Made by a program: the position numbers and the translations under genes
The notes under the pieces: model-generated
Seen by the model: only the letters and a program-made list of their open reading frames with translations
Databases searched by the model: none
What the model was told of the DNA's origin: nothing
Assembly (NCBI GenBank): GCA_002841865.1
Contig: PHBD01000001.1
Span: forward strand, 215,001-279,000
Direction of reading: 5' to 3'
DNA length: 64,000 nt
Source: Deltaproteobacteria bacterium HGW-Deltaproteobacteria-19
GTDB taxonomy: Bacteria; Desulfobacterota; Syntrophia; Syntrophales; PHBD01
Shown: one piece after another, positions 18,913 through 26,307 of the stretch
How positions within the stretch are numbered: the stretch's first letter is position 1
Layout: each line of letters opens with the position of its first letter

Positions 18913-18941
18913 TTGACACGTCCTGCCGATTTCCCTATGCT
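18913..18941 (+). promoter_or_regulatory. Sigma70-type promoter of the hydrogenase operon
   Basis: TTGACA at 18913-18918 and TATGCT at 18936-18941 are separated by exactly 17 bases, close to ideal. Transcription would start near 18948, giving a leader of about 210 bases before the hydrogenase ATG. Confidence 0.75.
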
Positions 18942-18944
18942 CAT

Positions 18945-18956
18945 TTGAAATTTCAA
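18945..18956. promoter_or_regulatory. Palindrome TTGAAATTTCAA at the predicted start site
   Basis: A perfect 12-bp palindrome lies directly over the predicted +1 of the hydrogenase promoter, the position expected for a repressor operator. It is similar in style to, but shorter than, a Rex site, so the cognate regulator is not identified. Confidence 0.5.
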
Positions 18957-19039
18957 GCACTTGAATCGTATGTTGAAAGAAGCAGAGGGCCTGTCGAACA
19001 CCGGGCCCTGATTCATCCAGCGGGGGCGCGTTACAGCAA

Positions 19040-19070
19040 AGGGGGGTTTGCTCTTTCGGGCAAGCCCCCT
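19040..19070 (+). promoter_or_regulatory. Stable hairpin in the hydrogenase leader
   Basis: AGGGGG pairs with CCCCCT and TTGC with GCAA around an 8-base loop, with a small internal bulge. It lies in the untranslated leader about 90 bases before the ATG. No T-run follows, so it is not a terminator. No known riboswitch pattern is recognised. Confidence 0.5.
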
Positions 19071-19156
19071 GCTTGTCTGTCGCAGTCCACGAACGTATCC
19101 GGGCGCCGGGCAAACGAAACACAACGAATCATCGGAAGGTTTAAGACAGGTTCCAT

Positions 19157-22100
19157 ATGATCAGCATTCACATCGACGGGAAAGACTGTCTGGTAAATGA
19201 AGGACAGACCATCATCGATGCCGCGCGGGCCCACGGCATCGATATCCCCTCACTCGGATACGATCCCCGGGTCAGCCCGCCAAGCAACGTGGAAGCGGCC
19301 TTCGTGGAACTCCATGAAGGAGGCGGAATCAGATTCATCTCGGCGACGGCCACCGAGGCATCGGAAGGCATGGTCATCCGTACGGAATCGGATGCCCTGG
19401 CAAGTTACCGGAAAATCTACCTTCAGGCCATACTCCGCCATCACTACGGCGACTGCACCGCACCGTGCGTCCGGCGCTGCCCCGCCCACATCGACATCCA
19501 GAAGTACATCTACCACGTGGATGCCGGCAATTTCCGGGAGGCCCTGGAAGTCATAAAAGACAGCAATCCGCTGCCCGCCGTCTGCGGACGCGTATGCCCC
19601 CATCCCTGCGAATCCGACTGCCGGAGAAACGCCGTCGACGGCGCCGTCAATATCAACGGCATCAAGCGATTCGTCGCCGACTGGGACCGCTGCCAACTCA
19701 CCCCCTACCGGCCGGAGTGTGCGCCCGATACAGGATTTCGAGTCGCCGTCATCGGCGCCGGTCCCGCGGGTTTGACGGTGGCCTGGTTTCTCCGGAGGGC
19801 CGGACATCGGGTCGCGATCTTCGAGATGCAGGAGGCGGCGGGCGGCATGCTGCGCTGGGGAATCCCCTTCTACCGTCTTCCCGAGGAAGAACTCGACGCG
19901 GAGATCCGGTCCATTCTCGACATCGGTATCGACATTCATTACGGGAAGAAGCTGGGCCGCGATTTTACGCTGGATTCCCTGAAAAAGGACGGGTTTGACG
20001 CCATTTTCGCCGGCCTTGGCGCACAGAAGGCATCCCCGATCGGCGTGACGGGGGAAGACCTCCCCGGCGTCGTCTCCGGGCTCGATTTTCTCGCGTCACT
20101 GGCGCGGGGGGAAAAACCGGATACGGGGGAGCGGGTCATCGTTCTGGGCGGCGGAAACACCGCCATGGACGCGGCCCGCAGCGCCGTCCGGCTCGGAGTC
20201 AGGGACGTCGTCGTAGCCTACCGGAGAACCCGTCGCGAGATGCCGGCCCAGGAGGACGAGATCGAGGAGGCCCTGGAGGAAGGGGTCGAGATCCGATACC
20301 TGACGGCCCCGCTGGCCATCGAGAAGGAAGGCCCCCTGCTCCGGCTCACGTGTATAAAAATGGAACTGGGGGAACCGGACAGGAGCGGAAGAAGACGGCC
20401 CGTTCCCGTTCCGGGGTCCGAGTTCACCCTCATGGCGACGATGATCATTTCCGCCATCGGGCAGGCCGTGGACGGCCTCTGCCTCGGGCATGAAAAGCTC
20501 GTCGACCGCTGGGGAAACGTTCAGGCCGATCCCGGGACCCAACAGACGGCGATTCCCTGGGTCTTCTCGGGAGGTGACTGCGTAACGGGTCCCGATATCG
20601 CAATTGCCGCCATCGGCGCCGGCAGGAAAGCGGCCGTATCCATCGACCGTTATCTCCGCGAAGGAACGGTCCTGTCTCCCGACGAACCGTATACCTGCAC
20701 GAAGGGCGACTGGCAGGACATTCCGAAGGACGCCTTCAAGGACGTCCAGCCCGCGCGGAGAAACGGACTCATCGTTCTGCCGCCCGAAGAAAGAAAAACA
20801 ACCTTCGCGGAATCGACCCGGACCTGGGACGCCGATACGGCCATGGCGGAAGCCTCCCGGTGCCTCCTGTGCGGTTGCTCGGAGCGCTACGGATGCGATC
20901 TCCGAAGTTACGCAAGCCGCTACGGCGTCCAGCACGAGGAAGCCCAGCCGGGAACCTCCCTGCCGGTGGACGACAACCACCCGATCATCCGGCGTGACGC
21001 CGGCAAGTGCATCCTCTGCGGACTCTGCCTGAAGGTATGCCGCGAGATGGAGGGAGTCTCCGCGTTGAGCTTTTATGAGACGAACAACGTTCTCACCATC
21101 GGACCGAACGACCACCGCCCCCTCGATCTCACGACCTGCGTTGCCTGCGGTCACTGTACAACCATCTGCCCCACGGGAGCGCTGACCCTGAGGCCGGTTC
21201 TTCCCCACGTCTACCGGGCCCTCCACACGCCGGAATGGACGGTCGTCGCCCAGATCGCTCCGGCGGTGCGCGCCGCCTTCGGCCAGCACTACGGCATTCT
21301 GCCGGAAAACGTCATGCCCGTGCTGAGCGCGGGGCTGAAGGAACTGGGATTCGATTTTGTTTTCGACACCTGCTGGGCCGCGGACCTGACCATCATGGAG
21401 GAGGGTACCGAATTCCTGTCGCGCCTGGCGGAGGGCGGCGTGATGCCCCAGATCACGTCGTGCTGCCCGGCCTGGGTGAATTACTGCGAAAAAATGGCAC
21501 CGGACATCCTGCCCAACCTTTCCTCCTGCAAATCTCCCCAGCAGATGTTCGGCGCGGTCATGAAGCGCTATTTTGCAAAGCAGCTGCGGGTAAGGCCGGA
21601 ACTCCTCTGCTTCATCTCCATCATGCCCTGCAATGCCAAGAAATATGAGGCCAGCCGTCCGGAGTTCCGATCGGGAGACGTTCCCGACGTGGATATCGTC
21701 ATGACGACAACCGACGTCATCGCCATGTTCGAGGAGAGGCACATCGACCCCCTGTCGATCAAGCCCCTTCCCGTGGACGCGTTCTTCGGGAAGGCCAGCG
21801 GCGCCGGCATCATTTTCGGGGCCAGCGGCGGCGTGGCGGAAGCGGCTCTTCGGCTGGCATCGGAGAAGATCAGCGGCCGGAGAATGGAGAGCTTCAATTA
21901 CGAAGGCGTGCGGGGGATGCAGGGGGTCAAGGAGACCAGGGTCCGGCTGGGCGAGACCGACGTCCGGCTGGCTGTCGTCAGCGGGCTGCAGAACGCCCAG
22001 CGGTTGATCGACCGGATTCGGGCCGGCGACGCCCCCTACGACCTCATCGAGGTCATGGCCTGCCCGGGCGGATGCATCAACGGCTCGGGCAATCCGGCTC

Positions 22101-22603
22101 CCCAGCTGAAAAGCGACACGGAATACCGCCTGGAGGTTCTGTACCGTCTTGATCAGGAGGCGTCCATCCGGACCAGCCAGGACAATCCCTCGGTCCAGGA
22201 CGTCTATCGAAGCTGGCTGGGGCGGCCGGACAGCGACGCCTCCCATCATGCCCTTCACACGACCTACCGCCGCCGCTCCATGCGCCCGCAGGAACCGGCC
22301 GCTGCCGTTCCCCGTACCGAATATCCGGTGGTTGATGTGGGGGTCTGCATCGGAACGAACTGCTACGTCAAGGGATCCTGGAAATTGCTGGAGGGCCTGT
22401 CGGCCGAGTTGAAAAGACGGGGGCTCACGGAGCGGTGCCGAGTGAAGGCCCGTTTCTGCACGGGACAGTGCCAGGACGGCCCGAACATCGCCGTCAACGG
22501 CCGGATCATCGGCATTTCGAATCCGGAGGACGCGGCGGGCATCGTCGATCGGCACCTGATTCCCGCTCTGGACGGCCCCTTCAAGGAAAAGGAAGAGGAA
22601 TAA
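19157..22603 (+). CDS. [FeFe]-hydrogenase fused to GltD-type NAD(P)H flavoprotein
   Basis: A 1148-residue fusion predicted to couple H2 to NAD(P)H. In order: a ferredoxin-like N-terminus with no cluster cysteines (1-80); a GltD-type [4Fe-4S] domain (Cys 100-155); FAD and NAD(P) folds with VIGAGPAGL (198-206) and VLGGGNTAMD (329-338); a CxxCxC site at 569-574; two [4Fe-4S] motifs (Cys 618-628 and 661-671); the H-cluster domain with TSCCPAW (767-773), MPCNAKKYE (823-831) and EVMACPGGC (965-973); and a thioredoxin-like [2Fe-2S] tail (Cys 1064, 1069, 1101, 1105). The proton-relay cysteine 769 is present, so it should be catalytic. It resembles the glutamate-synthase-linked group A2. No signal peptide, so cytosolic. 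First gene of the operon. Confidence 0.93.
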   Translation: MISIHIDGKDCLVNEGQTIIDAARAHGIDIPSLGYDPRVSPPSNVEAAFVELHEGGGIRFISATATEASEGMVIRTESDALASYRKIYLQAILRHHYGDCTAPCVRRCPAHIDIQKYIYHVDAGNFREALEVIKDSNPLPAVCGRVCPHPCESDCRRNAVDGAVNINGIKRFVADWDRCQLTPYRPECAPDTGFRVAVIGAGPAGLTVAWFLRRAGHRVAIFEMQEAAGGMLRWGIPFYRLPEEELDAEIRSILDIGIDIHYGKKLGRDFTLDSLKKDGFDAIFAGLGAQKASPIGVTGEDLPGVVSGLDFLASLARGEKPDTGERVIVLGGGNTAMDAARSAVRLGVRDVVVAYRRTRREMPAQEDEIEEALEEGVEIRYLTAPLAIEKEGPLLRLTCIKMELGEPDRSGRRRPVPVPGSEFTLMATMIISAIGQAVDGLCLGHEKLVDRWGNVQADPGTQQTAIPWVFSGGDCVTGPDIAIAAIGAGRKAAVSIDRYLREGTVLSPDEPYTCTKGDWQDIPKDAFKDVQPARRNGLIVLPPEERKTTFAESTRTWDADTAMAEASRCLLCGCSERYGCDLRSYASRYGVQHEEAQPGTSLPVDDNHPIIRRDAGKCILCGLCLKVCREMEGVSALSFYETNNVLTIGPNDHRPLDLTTCVACGHCTTICPTGALTLRPVLPHVYRALHTPEWTVVAQIAPAVRAAFGQHYGILPENVMPVLSAGLKELGFDFVFDTCWAADLTIMEEGTEFLSRLAEGGVMPQITSCCPAWVNYCEKMAPDILPNLSSCKSPQQMFGAVMKRYFAKQLRVRPELLCFISIMPCNAKKYEASRPEFRSGDVPDVDIVMTTTDVIAMFEERHIDPLSIKPLPVDAFFGKASGAGIIFGASGGVAEAALRLASEKISGRRMESFNYEGVRGMQGVKETRVRLGETDVRLAVVSGLQNAQRLIDRIRAGDAPYDLIEVMACPGGCINGSGNPAPQLKSDTEYRLEVLYRLDQEASIRTSQDNPSVQDVYRSWLGRPDSDASHHALHTTYRRRSMRPQEPAAAVPRTEYPVVDVGVCIGTNCYVKGSWKLLEGLSAELKRRGLTERCRVKARFCTGQCQDGPNIAVNGRIIGISNPEDAAGIVDRHLIPALDGPFKEKEEE

Positions 22604-22608
22604 CGCCC

Positions 22609-22884
22609 ATGCTTGTGGTCACCATCTGTGTCGGCAGTTCGTGCAGCCTCCGGGGATCGGATGAACTGGCGTCCGGAATCCAGCGGCTCATCGTCAAGGA
22701 GCAACTCGAGGGACTGGTCGACATCGTCGGCGCCTTCTGCATGGATGCCTGTTCAAAAGGCGTTTCGGTGACGGTGGGAAGCCGCGAGTTCAGCGGCATT
22801 CGTCCGGAAGACGCCGACGCCTTTTTCTATCGCGAGATCTTTCCCCTGCTCAGTAACAATGAACTCGTGAGGGCTCGCTCATGA
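22609..22884 (+). CDS. Thioredoxin-like [2Fe-2S] ferredoxin
   Basis: 91 residues. Cysteines in CVGSSCSLRG (Cx4C) and FCMDACSKG (Cx3C) match the thioredoxin-like [2Fe-2S] family seen as HydC/NuoE partners of [FeFe]-hydrogenases. The same fold forms the C-terminal tail of the preceding fusion protein, so the operon encodes it twice, once fused and once free. The start 6 bases after the hydrogenase stop is chosen because the protein then begins at the domain. Its 3' end overlaps the sensor gene by 4 bases, so it may deliver electrons to the sensor rather than the enzyme. Confidence 0.85.
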   Translation: MLVVTICVGSSCSLRGSDELASGIQRLIVKEQLEGLVDIVGAFCMDACSKGVSVTVGSREFSGIRPEDADAFFYREIFPLLSNNELVRARS

Positions 22885-24599
22885 ACGAACCGGTCATCAT
22901 CACGAACCCCGCCCTGTGCCACGACTGCTACCGCTGCGTGCGGAACTGCGACGTCAAGGCAATCCGCGTCCGGGATGGACAGGCCCAGGTCGTTCCCGAA
23001 CTCTGCATCCTCTGCGGTACCTGCATCCGCGTCTGCCCCCAGAAGGCCAAAGGCGTGCGGGCCTCCAGGCCGGACGTCTTGAAGGCGCACCGGGAAAGCC
23101 GGAAAATCATCGCCTCGGTGGCTCCTTCTATTCCCGCGTTCTTTCCGCTCCGGAGCTTCGCACAGGTTGAACATGCATTGAAAGCACTCGGGTTCTACGC
23201 CGCCGAGGAAACGGCAGTCGGCGCCCACATCGTGGCCCAGGCCCACCGGGACTACATGGAGCAATCGAGAGACCGCTGGCCCGTAATCACCTCTTCCTGC
23301 CCGGTCATCGTCAATCTTGTCGAACAGTATTATCCGGATCTCATCGGCCATCTGGCGCCCATCGTATCGCCCATGATCGCACATGGCCGGATTCTGGCCC
23401 GGAAATACGGCCCCGAGGCATACATCGTTTTCATCGGTCCCTGCATCGCCAAGAAAATGGAAATCCACGACGAGACCATAAGCGGCGCCATCCATGCGGC
23501 CATGACCTTCCAGGGCCTTCAGGATTGGATGGCCGAGGCGGATGTTGCATGGCCCGAACCGGAGAACGTGCCCGAAAAAGCCGTTGAGGAAAAAGCGAGG
23601 CTGTTCCCCATCGAGGGGGGACTGATCGGGACGGCCAGGATGAGCACGGACATCCTGGACAAGCAGCTGGTGATCGCCTCTGGGCTTCGCGCCTGCCGGG
23701 ACGTTCTGAACGACATCCGGTCGAGACAGCTTCACGCCTCCATGGTGGAGCTCCTGGCCTGCAAGGGAGGATGCGTCAACGGTCCGGTTATGGCCGGTAT
23801 TGAGGGCGGCATCTATGCAGCCCGGGAGAAGGTGATCCGTTTCCACGGCCGCTGCCAGCCGGAATTGCCCGTTCCCCGGGACGAATGGCCCGACCTGGGC
23901 AGGGAATACCGGGACAGGAAGGAGCACGGCCCGGAATTCAGCGAGGAAGACATCCAGAATGTCCTGCACCGCATCAACAAGTACAGCCCCGACGACGAGC
24001 TGAACTGCGGCGCCTGCGGCTATTCGTCCTGCCGGGAAAAGGCGCTGGCGACCCTGCGGGGCATGGCCGAAGTGACGATGTGCATTCCCTACATGCGGCG
24101 CCGCTCCGAATCACTGCGCCAGGTGGTCATGGACGCCACACCGAACGCAATCATCATCGTCGACAACGACCTCCTGGTCCAGGACATGTCCCCGTCGGCG
24201 GAAACGCTGTTCCGGAAAACCCTGTCCGATGTGAAGGGGAGGCACCTCTCAAACCTCATCACGGTCATGGACGATTTCATTCATGTCCGCGACACGGGGC
24301 AGCCCGTCATCGGCAGGGCGAGACGGCTGAAGGAAGACCTGGTGGGTGAACAGTCCATTGTCCGCGTCGAGGGACAGCTTCTCATGGTGGCCATTATCCG
24401 CGATGTCACGGAGCGGGAGAAGGAACGGGAGCAGTTCCGCTCCATCCGTGAGGAAACCCTGGAGCGGACCCGGGAGGTCCTGGGCAAGCAGATGCGGGTC
24501 GCCCATGAGATCGCCCACCTTCTCGGTGAAACGACGGCGGAAAGCAAGACCATCGTGACCCATCTGGCCCGGCTACTGGAAGGGGATGATCAGGAGTGA
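22881..24599 (+). CDS. hydS: Group C [FeFe]-hydrogenase-type H2 sensor with PAS domain
   Basis: 572 residues, cytosolic. Two [4Fe-4S] ferredoxin motifs (Cys 13-23 and 42-52) precede an H-cluster domain whose motifs are TSSCPVI (137-143), IGPCIAKK (185-192) and LLACKGGC (291-298). Serine 139 replaces the proton-relay cysteine, the usual mark of sensory rather than catalytic [FeFe] proteins. Then come a CxxCx4C...C iron-sulfur site (Cys 376, 379, 384, 401), a PAS domain (about 405-505) and a helical tail (505-565) containing His 542 and 546 but no kinase domain. The start overlaps the ferredoxin stop by 4 bases and the stop overlaps the phosphatase start by 4, so output probably goes to that phosphatase. 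Symbol used by analogy with described HydS proteins. Confidence 0.9.
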   Translation: MNEPVIITNPALCHDCYRCVRNCDVKAIRVRDGQAQVVPELCILCGTCIRVCPQKAKGVRASRPDVLKAHRESRKIIASVAPSIPAFFPLRSFAQVEHALKALGFYAAEETAVGAHIVAQAHRDYMEQSRDRWPVITSSCPVIVNLVEQYYPDLIGHLAPIVSPMIAHGRILARKYGPEAYIVFIGPCIAKKMEIHDETISGAIHAAMTFQGLQDWMAEADVAWPEPENVPEKAVEEKARLFPIEGGLIGTARMSTDILDKQLVIASGLRACRDVLNDIRSRQLHASMVELLACKGGCVNGPVMAGIEGGIYAAREKVIRFHGRCQPELPVPRDEWPDLGREYRDRKEHGPEFSEEDIQNVLHRINKYSPDDELNCGACGYSSCREKALATLRGMAEVTMCIPYMRRRSESLRQVVMDATPNAIIIVDNDLLVQDMSPSAETLFRKTLSDVKGRHLSNLITVMDDFIHVRDTGQPVIGRARRLKEDLVGEQSIVRVEGQLLMVAIIRDVTEREKEREQFRSIREETLERTREVLGKQMRVAHEIAHLLGETTAESKTIVTHLARLLEGDDQE

Positions 24600-25774
24600 G
24601 GCAGGTCGTTGAATTTGCCTGGCGCAGTCTGAACAAGGCCGGGGAAGAGCTCTGCGGCGATTCGGTCATCATCCGGACCCGCCCCGATTCGTTCGTCGCC
24701 GTCCTGTCGGACGGCCTGGGCAGCGGCGTCAAGGCAAGCATTCTTTCCACCTTGACGGCAGAGATCGCCGCCCGCCTCTTCGAATCGGGGATCTCCGTGG
24801 AAGAGGTCATGCAGACGCTCGTGGAGACCCTTCCGGAATGCAACGTGAGAAAACTGGCCTATGCCACGTTCTCCGTACTCACCGTGATCGAGGGCCGTCG
24901 CGCCCATCTCGTGGAATTCGATTCTCCGCCCCTGATCATGATCCGGGACAACGCCCTCTTCGACCTCCAGACGGAAAAACGGGAGGTAGGCGGCCGGTTG
25001 ATCCGGGAAGCCCGTTTCGATGTCCGGGAAAACGATTACCTGGTGCTGATCAGTGACGGTTATGAGCATGCAGGCCTCGGAGGCATTTATCGCCTGGGGT
25101 GGAGATGGCCGAACATCGCCCTGGCCGTGCAGCGCTTTGTCCAGACGGGCGTGGACACGCACAGGCTCATGCTCGCCCTGTCGCGGACCTGCATGAAGCT
25201 TTACGACGACAAGCCCGGTGACGATTCGACGGTCATCGCCATGAAAATCCGGCCGGCCGTGTCCATCGCCATTCTCACGGGTCCCCCCGCCGACAGGGAT
25301 CTGGACGCCCACGCCGTTTCCAGGCTGATGGACGCCGAAGGCTGCAAGATCATCTGCGGAGGAAGCACAGCTCAGATGGCTGCCCGCGTCCTGGACAGGA
25401 AACTGGAGGTGGAGTGGGTTCCGCCCTGGAAACGGACGGAGGAAAAGCCCGCCCGGAAAAAAGGTTCGCCCCCTACGGCCCTTCTCCAGGGAGTCGATCT
25501 CGTGACCGAAGGGATCCTGACACTCGGCCAGGCCGTTGAAATCATGCGCAACGCCGGAACGAGCGACGATCTTCCCCGCGACGACGACGCCGCCACCCGC
25601 CTTGCCCGCCATCTTCTGGAGGCCGATGACATCCATCTGATCGTCGGCACGGCCATCAACCCCAACCAGGTTGCCGACCTGATCCGCGGCGAGCCCATGC
25701 GCATGGTTTATATCCGCGAACTTCTTCATGATCTTACTCAGAGGAACAAGCAGGTCCGGGTCGAGCGGATATGA
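24596..25774 (+). CDS. SpoIIE-type PP2C phosphatase with extra C-terminal domain
   Basis: 392 residues. The PP2C/SpoIIE domain (about 1-225) keeps the metal aspartates in ELCGDSVII, VLSDGLGSG, ISDGYEH and GDDSTVIAM, so it should dephosphorylate Ser/Thr-phosphoproteins such as anti-sigma-factor antagonists. Beyond it is a separate domain (about 230-392) with CGGSTAQMAARVL and GVDLVTEGILTLGQAVEIM, which I recall only from phosphatases next to HydS-type sensors. It begins with GTG overlapping the sensor stop (GTGA), a sign of tightly coupled expression. A substrate protein is not encoded nearby. Confidence 0.88.
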   Translation: MRQVVEFAWRSLNKAGEELCGDSVIIRTRPDSFVAVLSDGLGSGVKASILSTLTAEIAARLFESGISVEEVMQTLVETLPECNVRKLAYATFSVLTVIEGRRAHLVEFDSPPLIMIRDNALFDLQTEKREVGGRLIREARFDVRENDYLVLISDGYEHAGLGGIYRLGWRWPNIALAVQRFVQTGVDTHRLMLALSRTCMKLYDDKPGDDSTVIAMKIRPAVSIAILTGPPADRDLDAHAVSRLMDAEGCKIICGGSTAQMAARVLDRKLEVEWVPPWKRTEEKPARKKGSPPTALLQGVDLVTEGILTLGQAVEIMRNAGTSDDLPRDDDAATRLARHLLEADDIHLIVGTAINPNQVADLIRGEPMRMVYIRELLHDLTQRNKQVRVERI

Positions 25775-25785
25775 CCTGCACCGAA

Positions 25786-26307
25786 TCAGTCATGATCCAG
25801 AATGATCGAACGTAGCGAGGACGGGGGCTGGATCAGCCGTCTGGGGAGTGTAATTCTCACCGTAGTACCCGTTGGGCCTTGTTCCGGATAAGCATTCGAT
25901 TCAATACTCATTTCACCGCGATGCGCTTTGACCGTGCCGTACGCCGACGGCAGGCCGAGGCCCGTTCCCTCACCGACCGGTTTGGTCGAGAAAAAGGGCG
26001 TGAAAAGCTGCTCCAGATGATCCTTCAAAATTCCCGTTCCCGTGTCCCGGATCATAACCATGATCCTTTCGCCGTCGGCGCTCTCCTCCCCGAATACGGT
26101 GAGTGTGCCCCCGTCGGGCATGGCCTCAATGGCGTTTTGCTCGATGTCGACCAGGGCTTTCACAATGCGTTCGTGATCCAGCCAGACATCACCATTCGCG
26201 ATTTCGAACGTTAAAATGACGTGAATGGATGCCGGCACAGTGAGAGCGCGAATGCTTTCGTCCATGATACGCAGAATGTCCGTTTTTCTTAATTTCAATC
26301 CCTGCAA
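25786..26307 (-). CDS. Free-standing histidine-kinase-type ATPase domain
   Basis: 173 residues holding a complete HATPase_c domain: N box DIEQNAIEAMP, G1 RDTGTGI, F box LFTPFFSTKP and G2 GTGLGLPSAY. There is no dimerisation/phosphoacceptor helix, no sensor and no membrane segment. The TTG start is backed by GGGAGG 9 bases upstream. The motifs are of sensor-kinase rather than anti-sigma-kinase type. It is convergent with the phosphatase (11 bases between stops). It could be a trans-acting kinase half for another protein or a remnant of a larger kinase whose 5' part is gone. Confidence 0.75.
   Translation of the reverse strand: MQGLKLRKTDILRIMDESIRALTVPASIHVILTFEIANGDVWLDHERIVKALVDIEQNAIEAMPDGGTLTVFGEESADGERIMVMIRDTGTGILKDHLEQLFTPFFSTKPVGEGTGLGLPSAYGTVKAHRGEMSIESNAYPEQGPTGTTVRITLPRRLIQPPSSLRSIILDHD

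Follow-up and report, generated by a model that had tools for sequence, protein, structure and literature searches.

What does an H2 sensor govern when it is encoded next to a hydrogenase? This question is raised by four genes in a stretch of 64,000 nucleotides (the window) from Deltaproteobacteria bacterium HGW-Deltaproteobacteria-19, a member of the Syntrophales (assembly GCA_002841865.1, contig PHBD01000001.1, positions 215,001 to 279,000 of the forward strand). Domain searches bore out the original prediction, made from the letters alone, that a catalytic [FeFe] hydrogenase fused to a GltD-type flavoprotein (HydA-GltD or HydGltD), a free [2Fe-2S] protein, a sensory [FeFe] hydrogenase with a PAS domain (HydS) and a SpoIIE-type phosphatase (PP2C) lie here together on one strand (Table 1). 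The host bacteria avoid oxygen, and in this tightly packed cluster a hydrogenase joined to an NADPH-binding protein stands beside a widespread sensor-phosphatase kit. We consider it probable that the locus couples an NADP(H)-linked group A hydrogenase to a group C3 H2-sensing cassette, and that HydS switches PP2C, which tunes the operon to H2 pressure. The matter is of general concern for H2 measurement by [FeFe] sensors in fermenting and syntrophic bacteria: in the literature searched, their sensing role is called putative and the phosphatase target goes unnamed.

The catalytic and the sensory hydrogenase

The four genes, all on the plus strand, are spaced by 5, -4 and -4 bases; the two overlaps had been predicted as such, while the first gap had been counted as 6. 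Judging from these overlaps, one transcript likely covers them all.

The fusion is a group A [FeFe] hydrogenase. It scores 446 bits on the family model TIGR02512 (cut-off 406), carries H-cluster motifs of the catalytic type (TSCCP, MPCNAKK, ACPGGC) and, in a tree of H-cluster domains, falls within group A, in a clade of GltD-fused proteins (support 99) beside the HydA of HydABC-type clusters. For residues 1-680, the best match among solved structures is to StnC-like GltD fusions, and the signatures described for StnC (PMC7483475) are found: HxxxCxxxCxxxCP (96), the NADP(H) motif GxGxxA as GGGNTA (331) and the FAD-tuning Arg in GIPFYRLP (235). The cysteines of the N-terminal [2Fe-2S] cluster are gone, in the LGYDPRVSPP stretch, from the examined Syntrophales fusions and from that of G350, a genome outside the class; CGLC-type sites are retained in the fusions of G398, also outside the class, and of locus L085 (Calditrichales). 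Since these cysteines are lost and no NuoF-like HydB subunit is encoded among the four operon genes, the simplest reading of the sequence would be a non-bifurcating NADP(H):H2 enzyme, with NADPH as its presumed electron carrier. The fusion may also recruit a HydB encoded elsewhere in the genome.

Three established types do not accommodate this protein. It does not fit the bifurcating HydABC (A3) type, as none of the four genes encodes a NuoF-like HydB; a NuoF-type HydB is paired with a separate HydA on a different contig. Nor does it follow the HydDB rule for A2, because the next protein is only a [2Fe-2S] protein and GltD lies within the catalytic chain. Among StnC/Nso-type GltD-NuoG proteins, its N-terminal half fits, while its C-terminal half is an H-cluster domain. 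A HydF maturase is encoded in the same genome.

HydS is of another kind. It consists of two N-terminal [4Fe-4S] clusters, an H-cluster domain, an FeS domain and PAS, scores 98 bits on the same group A model, thus below its cut-off, and displays the H-cluster motifs TSSCP, GPCIAKK and ACKGGC. In the tree, it groups with C3-type sensors in a clade of 26 rows, separate from group A. This tree of 121 rows was built with a quick method and without the curated HydDB reference set, so that, with its long branches, deep joins are unsure. The division between groups A and C is independent of these joins, because the motifs differ and, of the two proteins, only the fusion exceeds the cut-off of the group A model. 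The placement of both H-cluster domains, which had been proposed as a check of the original prediction, therefore came out in its favour.

The H-cluster ligands of HydS are intact: C140, C188, C294 and C298, together with G186 and K191, are invariant in 99/99 C3-type sensors. The proton-path Cys and the MPC Met of group A are both replaced. At the former site, the residue preceding C140, the 99 sensors show C, A or S, a variation that fits the published pattern (PMC10055695). The Cx2Cx4Cx16C cluster is known from group C and D enzymes (PMC8163306), and the C-terminal output helix is preserved in C3-type sensors of several phyla. HydS can consequently be assigned to C3 on four grounds, which are its position in the tree, its cluster/PAS layout, the four ligand cysteines and the adjoining Ser/Thr phosphatase.

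That phosphatase gene lies immediately 3' of the sensor gene in 90/99 cases by an open-reading-frame test, most commonly with a 4-base overlap, and in nearly all by tblastn. The PP2C fold and the conserved metal-binding Asp make the protein SpoIIE-type, and it is distinct from the sporulation SpoIIE proper (TIGR02865, 34.6 bits vs a cut-off of 490.8). Since the metal-binding residues D22, D39, D154 and GDD 208-210 are preserved in at least 90% of 92 orthologues, PP2C should be active. Its C-terminal domain carries the conserved motifs GPP, GG[ST]T, PP, DLxTEG and GxAxN and gives a predicted structure with a pLDDT (predicted local distance difference test) of 91, for which Foldseek found no match at E <= 0.001, only weak Rossmann-like alpha/beta ones. 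The free [2Fe-2S] protein is thioredoxin-like, and among solved structures it matches only a hydrogenase alpha subunit, in the C-terminal part (7p5h). It is conserved at 67-98% within the class and resembles the C-terminal domain of the fusion.

Table 1. Features of the locus, given as positions in the window or as residues of the encoded protein
Feature	Position	Strand	Remarks
Sigma-70-like promoter TTGACA-17-TATGCT	18913..18941	+	candidate operon start; 10/12 consensus matches; consensus match only
GC-rich leader hairpin, 13 bp	19041..19070	+	between promoter and gene 1; also in G020
HydA-GltD fusion gene	19157-22603	+	1148 amino acids
Fusion, degenerate 2Fe-2S domain	residues 1-78
Fusion, GltD-type FAD/NADPH module	residues 100-500
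Fusion, 2x[4Fe-4S]	residues 611-680
Fusion, group A H-cluster domain	residues 695-976		SSU segment to 1040
Fusion, thioredoxin-like [2Fe-2S] domain	residues 1060-1131
Free [2Fe-2S] protein gene	22609-22884	+	91 amino acids
HydS gene (group C3 sensory [FeFe] hydrogenase)	22881-24599	+	572 amino acids
HydS C-terminal cluster domain Cx2Cx4Cx16C	24000..24089	+	C376, C379, C384, C401; PF04060; conserved cysteines
HydS C-terminal output helix KQMxVAxEIAxLLGETTAExK	24486..24548	+	near-invariant over 99 C3 sensors
SpoIIE-type PP2C gene	24596-25774	+	392 amino acids, GTG start
PP2C domain	residues 1-220
PP2C, conserved alpha/beta C-terminal domain	residues 221-392
Standalone GHKL HATPase gene, no HisKA domain	25786-26307	-	173 amino acids, TTG start; PF02518; convergent with the phosphatase gene, separate transcript

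Conservation and partners of the cassette

Full-length fusions were found in 18/155 genomes of the Syntrophales class. All 18 also contain a close sensor, and a sensor without fusion occurs only in G136, on a 5.4-kb contig. The same four-gene order is present in 17/18 fusion-bearing genomes, as the proposed check had called for, the exception being G074 where the fusion lies on a separate contig from the sensor; these genomes are related, so that the counts for order and co-occurrence are not independent events. Together with the low ratios of non-synonymous to synonymous substitution (dN/dS) vs the sister genome G020 (sensor about 0.10, phosphatase about 0.05), this recurrence argues that the four-gene arrangement is not due to chance. 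Outside the class, G350 has the same members in a different order on one strand (HydB-HydA-HydS-PP2C-fusion), beside HydABC genes, and the fusion of G398 is more distant (45%) and has no sensor in its vicinity.

A scan of the genome collection gave 80 loci, in which [2Fe-2S]-HydS-PP2C forms a near-constant core in Bacillota, Chloroflexota, a Calditrichales genome and others. Other phyla have the trio in about 70 loci, often with an adjoining HydA-type hydrogenase. Its partners are HydABC, the GltD fusion, a GltD-molybdopterin fusion (L085) or none. Because the core recurs with such varied partners, the cassette can be seen as a portable module which, in Syntrophales, is wired to the GltD fusion. 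In L085 (4460-12885), NuoF, the GltD-molybdopterin fusion (StnC/formate dehydrogenase-like), [2Fe-2S], HydS and PP2C follow one another in one run, and the sensor cassette thus adjoins a non-hydrogenase partner.

Some variants of the catalytic proteins were also noticed. The G020 fusion is two residues shorter, owing to an in-frame TAG (L042 5684-5686) two codons ahead of the window's frame end. The genome of the window encodes a second hydrogenase (L039 9327-12404 and 7481-9277, both on the minus strand), in which a NuoF-GltD fusion of 1025 amino acids represents HydB and adjoins an ordinary HydA, and L083 has a similarly long HydB with a GltD match. On contig C65 of the same genome, a single open reading frame (L041 5094-6407) starts with the N-terminus of a MoaA-like radical SAM protein and continues as the C-terminal part of a HydA domain; it lies near the end of this 6.9-kb contig and is probably an assembly join.

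What the sensor may control

This gene set is most naturally read as encoding a phosphatase controlled by an H2 sensor. In the mechanism that we propose, H2, or the redox potential that it sets, would alter the state of the HydS H-cluster, and the [4Fe-4S] clusters, including Cx2Cx4Cx16C, would relay the change to the PAS domain and the C-terminal helix. This helix would dock on the separately encoded PP2C and switch its activity, HydS and PP2C together being comparable to a PAS-coiled-coil-PP2C protein whose two parts come from separate genes. The anatomy of RsbP, RsbU and SpoIIE is the model for such a picture. PP2C would then dephosphorylate a Ser/Thr-phosphorylated regulator setting the expression or activity of the operon, and NADPH-driven H2 release or H2 uptake would be matched to H2 pressure. 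The H2 response, the direct contact between HydS and PP2C, the phosphatase target and the sign of the control are what we infer here. As the cassette keeps very faithfully to one single-chain enzyme in the Syntrophales operon, the target may be close at hand.

Several observations weigh against this mechanism. In three genomes, a sensor paralogue, about 60% identical, occurs without phosphatase, and the sensor thus need not always work via this protein. A HydS-phosphatase fusion, which we sought as a proof of contact, was not seen among the fetched loci. The operon contains neither a phosphatase target nor a STAS or RsbW-like gene, so that such partners within it are ruled out; the three STAS genes of the window's genome are all located outside the operon. 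Moreover, promoter architecture varies from genus to genus. The phosphatase-less paralogues (L034 5918-7642 and L035 5389-7101 on the minus strand, L061 2867-4591 on the plus strand) have an altered H-cluster P3 motif, e.g. ACKGGCVSS; the one in L035, the only case in which neighbours were tested, follows an acetyl-CoA hydrolase/transferase-GNAT gene.

Alternatively, sensor and phosphatase could report H2 to a cell-wide switch, such as an anti-sigma/antagonist pair from another locus, instead of feeding back on the operon, the transcript being shared for co-production with the hydrogenase. STAS, RsbW-like and likely PP2C genes are indeed found together on another contig of this genome, and the variety of partners with which the cassette pairs would be in keeping with a general reporter. 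Yet fusion and sensor almost always occur together in the class and are re-associated in G350, which suggests a specific link, and we regard the cell-wide switch as rather unlikely, if well worth considering. The control could also be post-translational, PP2C dephosphorylating the fusion or the [2Fe-2S] protein and so gating enzyme activity. Gene overlaps would favour co-translation and a complex, and the likeness between the [2Fe-2S] protein and the C-terminal domain of the fusion points the same way; however, the operon is devoid of a Ser/Thr kinase and phosphorylation of such hydrogenases is unreported in the literature searched, which leaves this gating improbable. Least credible to us is that HydS would be a slow redox enzyme serving the fusion, with the phosphatase as an unrelated passenger. 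Turnover of H2 in vitro is on record for group C enzymes (PMC10055695) and direct physiological evidence of sensing is thin (PMC8924675), but such a role agrees poorly with the PAS domain and near-invariant output helix, with a sensor-phosphatase adjacency that spans several phyla and with the loss of the group A proton-path and MPC residues.

Apart from the four genes, the surroundings of the operon offer candidates for further parts of an H2-dependent control. Downstream, the convergent HATPase gene is found at the same position in about 17 Syntrophales loci, which extends the conserved neighbourhood past the end of the original prediction. Its orthologues mostly start with TTG or GTG, with scant open frame ahead, and are under selection (dN/dS 0.29); no HATPase match adjoins the phosphatase in L044, L047, L049 and L050. 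The protein could possibly act as a kinase opposing the phosphatase. A histidine-kinase-like ATPase adjoins a group D sensor in Thermoanaerobacter mathranii (PMC8163306). We rejected a special kinship with histidine-kinase-type group C sensors, because dozens of ordinary kinases encoded in this genome show similar identities to it (about 31-44%).

Upstream, the start of the operon had been predicted at 18913; the first gene begins at 19157, and 18913 is the first base of the -35 hexamer in the best candidate promoter. The end of the -10 box is 215 bases from the first start codon, and the promoter-like sequence is retained in G020. The leader folds better than shuffled sequences (z -3.1). No known RNA element was recognised in the 5' leader, the Rfam search being empty at the gathering threshold and giving a single meaningless match at a loose one. 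In six loci of Smithellaceae type (L047, L049, L050, L055, L056, L058), the palindrome TACTGACGGTCAGTA lies upstream of the fusion gene, where it overlaps or follows the -10 box. Allowing up to one mismatch, it occurs once per genome in G026, G060 and G070, at the HydGltD promoter, and is absent from the genome of the window and from G054. It is therefore no regulon-wide operator in those three genomes, and its restriction to a single place there points to a dedicated putative regulator. We can imagine that PP2C and the GHKL ATPase form an antagonistic phosphatase/kinase pair which reads HydS and sets the phosphorylation state of a dedicated regulator binding this Smithellaceae palindrome at the promoter. 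This extension is quite doubtful; if true, it would make up a complete H2-responsive circuit governing an NADPH hydrogenase where syntrophic growth meets its thermodynamic limit. Experiments could start from the output helix, from the C-terminal domain of PP2C, from the convergent ATPase gene or from the palindrome that occurs once per genome. The fusion would link NADP(H) and H2 in a compact enzyme relevant to redox balance in syntrophy.

Relation to known systems

Clusters of sensor, phosphatase and hydrogenase, and an H2 loop through them, had already been published, which limits the novelty claimed by the original prediction; what holds is the unusual catalytic partner, the GltD fusion. 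HydDB defines the [FeFe] group C3 as phosphatase-linked sensory hydrogenases (PMC5037454). Its members, as here, combine a group C H-cluster domain with an adjoining Ser/Thr phosphatase, but the class takes any partner. In Thermoanaerobacterium, hfsABCD clusters a catalytic hydrogenase, a PAS sensor and a Ser/Thr phosphatase (PMC11837493). Ruminococcus albus has a cluster of ferredoxin-hydrogenase, HydS and phosphatase, for which an H2 feedback loop via the phosphatase was proposed; the strong regulation measured in co-culture provides a precedent for H2-dependent regulation (PMC6776011). Both share with our locus the catalytic [FeFe] hydrogenase clustered with a PAS sensor and a Ser/Thr phosphatase, but the enzyme there is of the ferredoxin type, in place of the NADP(H)-type fusion and free [2Fe-2S] protein found here. 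C3 sensors have also been noted as subunits of bifurcating-enzyme clusters in Hydrogenedentota (PMC11406978). Thermotoga maritima TmHydS likewise lies within the operon of a group A hydrogenase, and an iron-hydrogenase-operon [2Fe-2S] protein is cited (PMC10055695). There, however, the partner is not a GltD fusion. We take it to be the bifurcating HydABC.

On the catalytic side, HydDB has a group A2 linked to glutamate synthase, in which GltD is encoded by the adjoining downstream gene (PMC5037454). A group A hydrogenase is coupled with a GltD-type flavoprotein in both cases, whereas here GltD forms an insertion within the chain of the hydrogenase itself; a large subunit of glutamate synthase was not noticed near the fusion gene of the window. 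StnC and the GltD-NuoG protein of Sporomusa-type Nfn (PMC7483475; PDB 8oh5) have the same [2Fe-2S]-GltD-[4Fe-4S] N-terminal half, followed by a NuoG/molybdopterin-like half instead of an H-cluster domain. The fusion differs from them also by the missing N-terminal [2Fe-2S] cysteines and by an operon without StnB-like partner. A single-chain HydA-GltD fusion is not described in the literature searched, the coverage of which mostly excludes subscription papers. With SpoIIE and RsbU-RsbP of Bacillus, PP2C shares its fold and metal ligands, but the sensor is encoded separately here and the C-terminal domain is a distinct, conserved one. What is new compared with all these systems is that the catalytic partner is an NADP(H)-type fusion on a single chain, which has lost its N-terminal [2Fe-2S] cysteines and is closely conserved within one bacterial class; new too are the near-invariant output helix of the sensor, the conserved but unannotated C-terminal domain of the phosphatase, the convergent GHKL ATPase gene and the Smithellaceae promoter palindrome.

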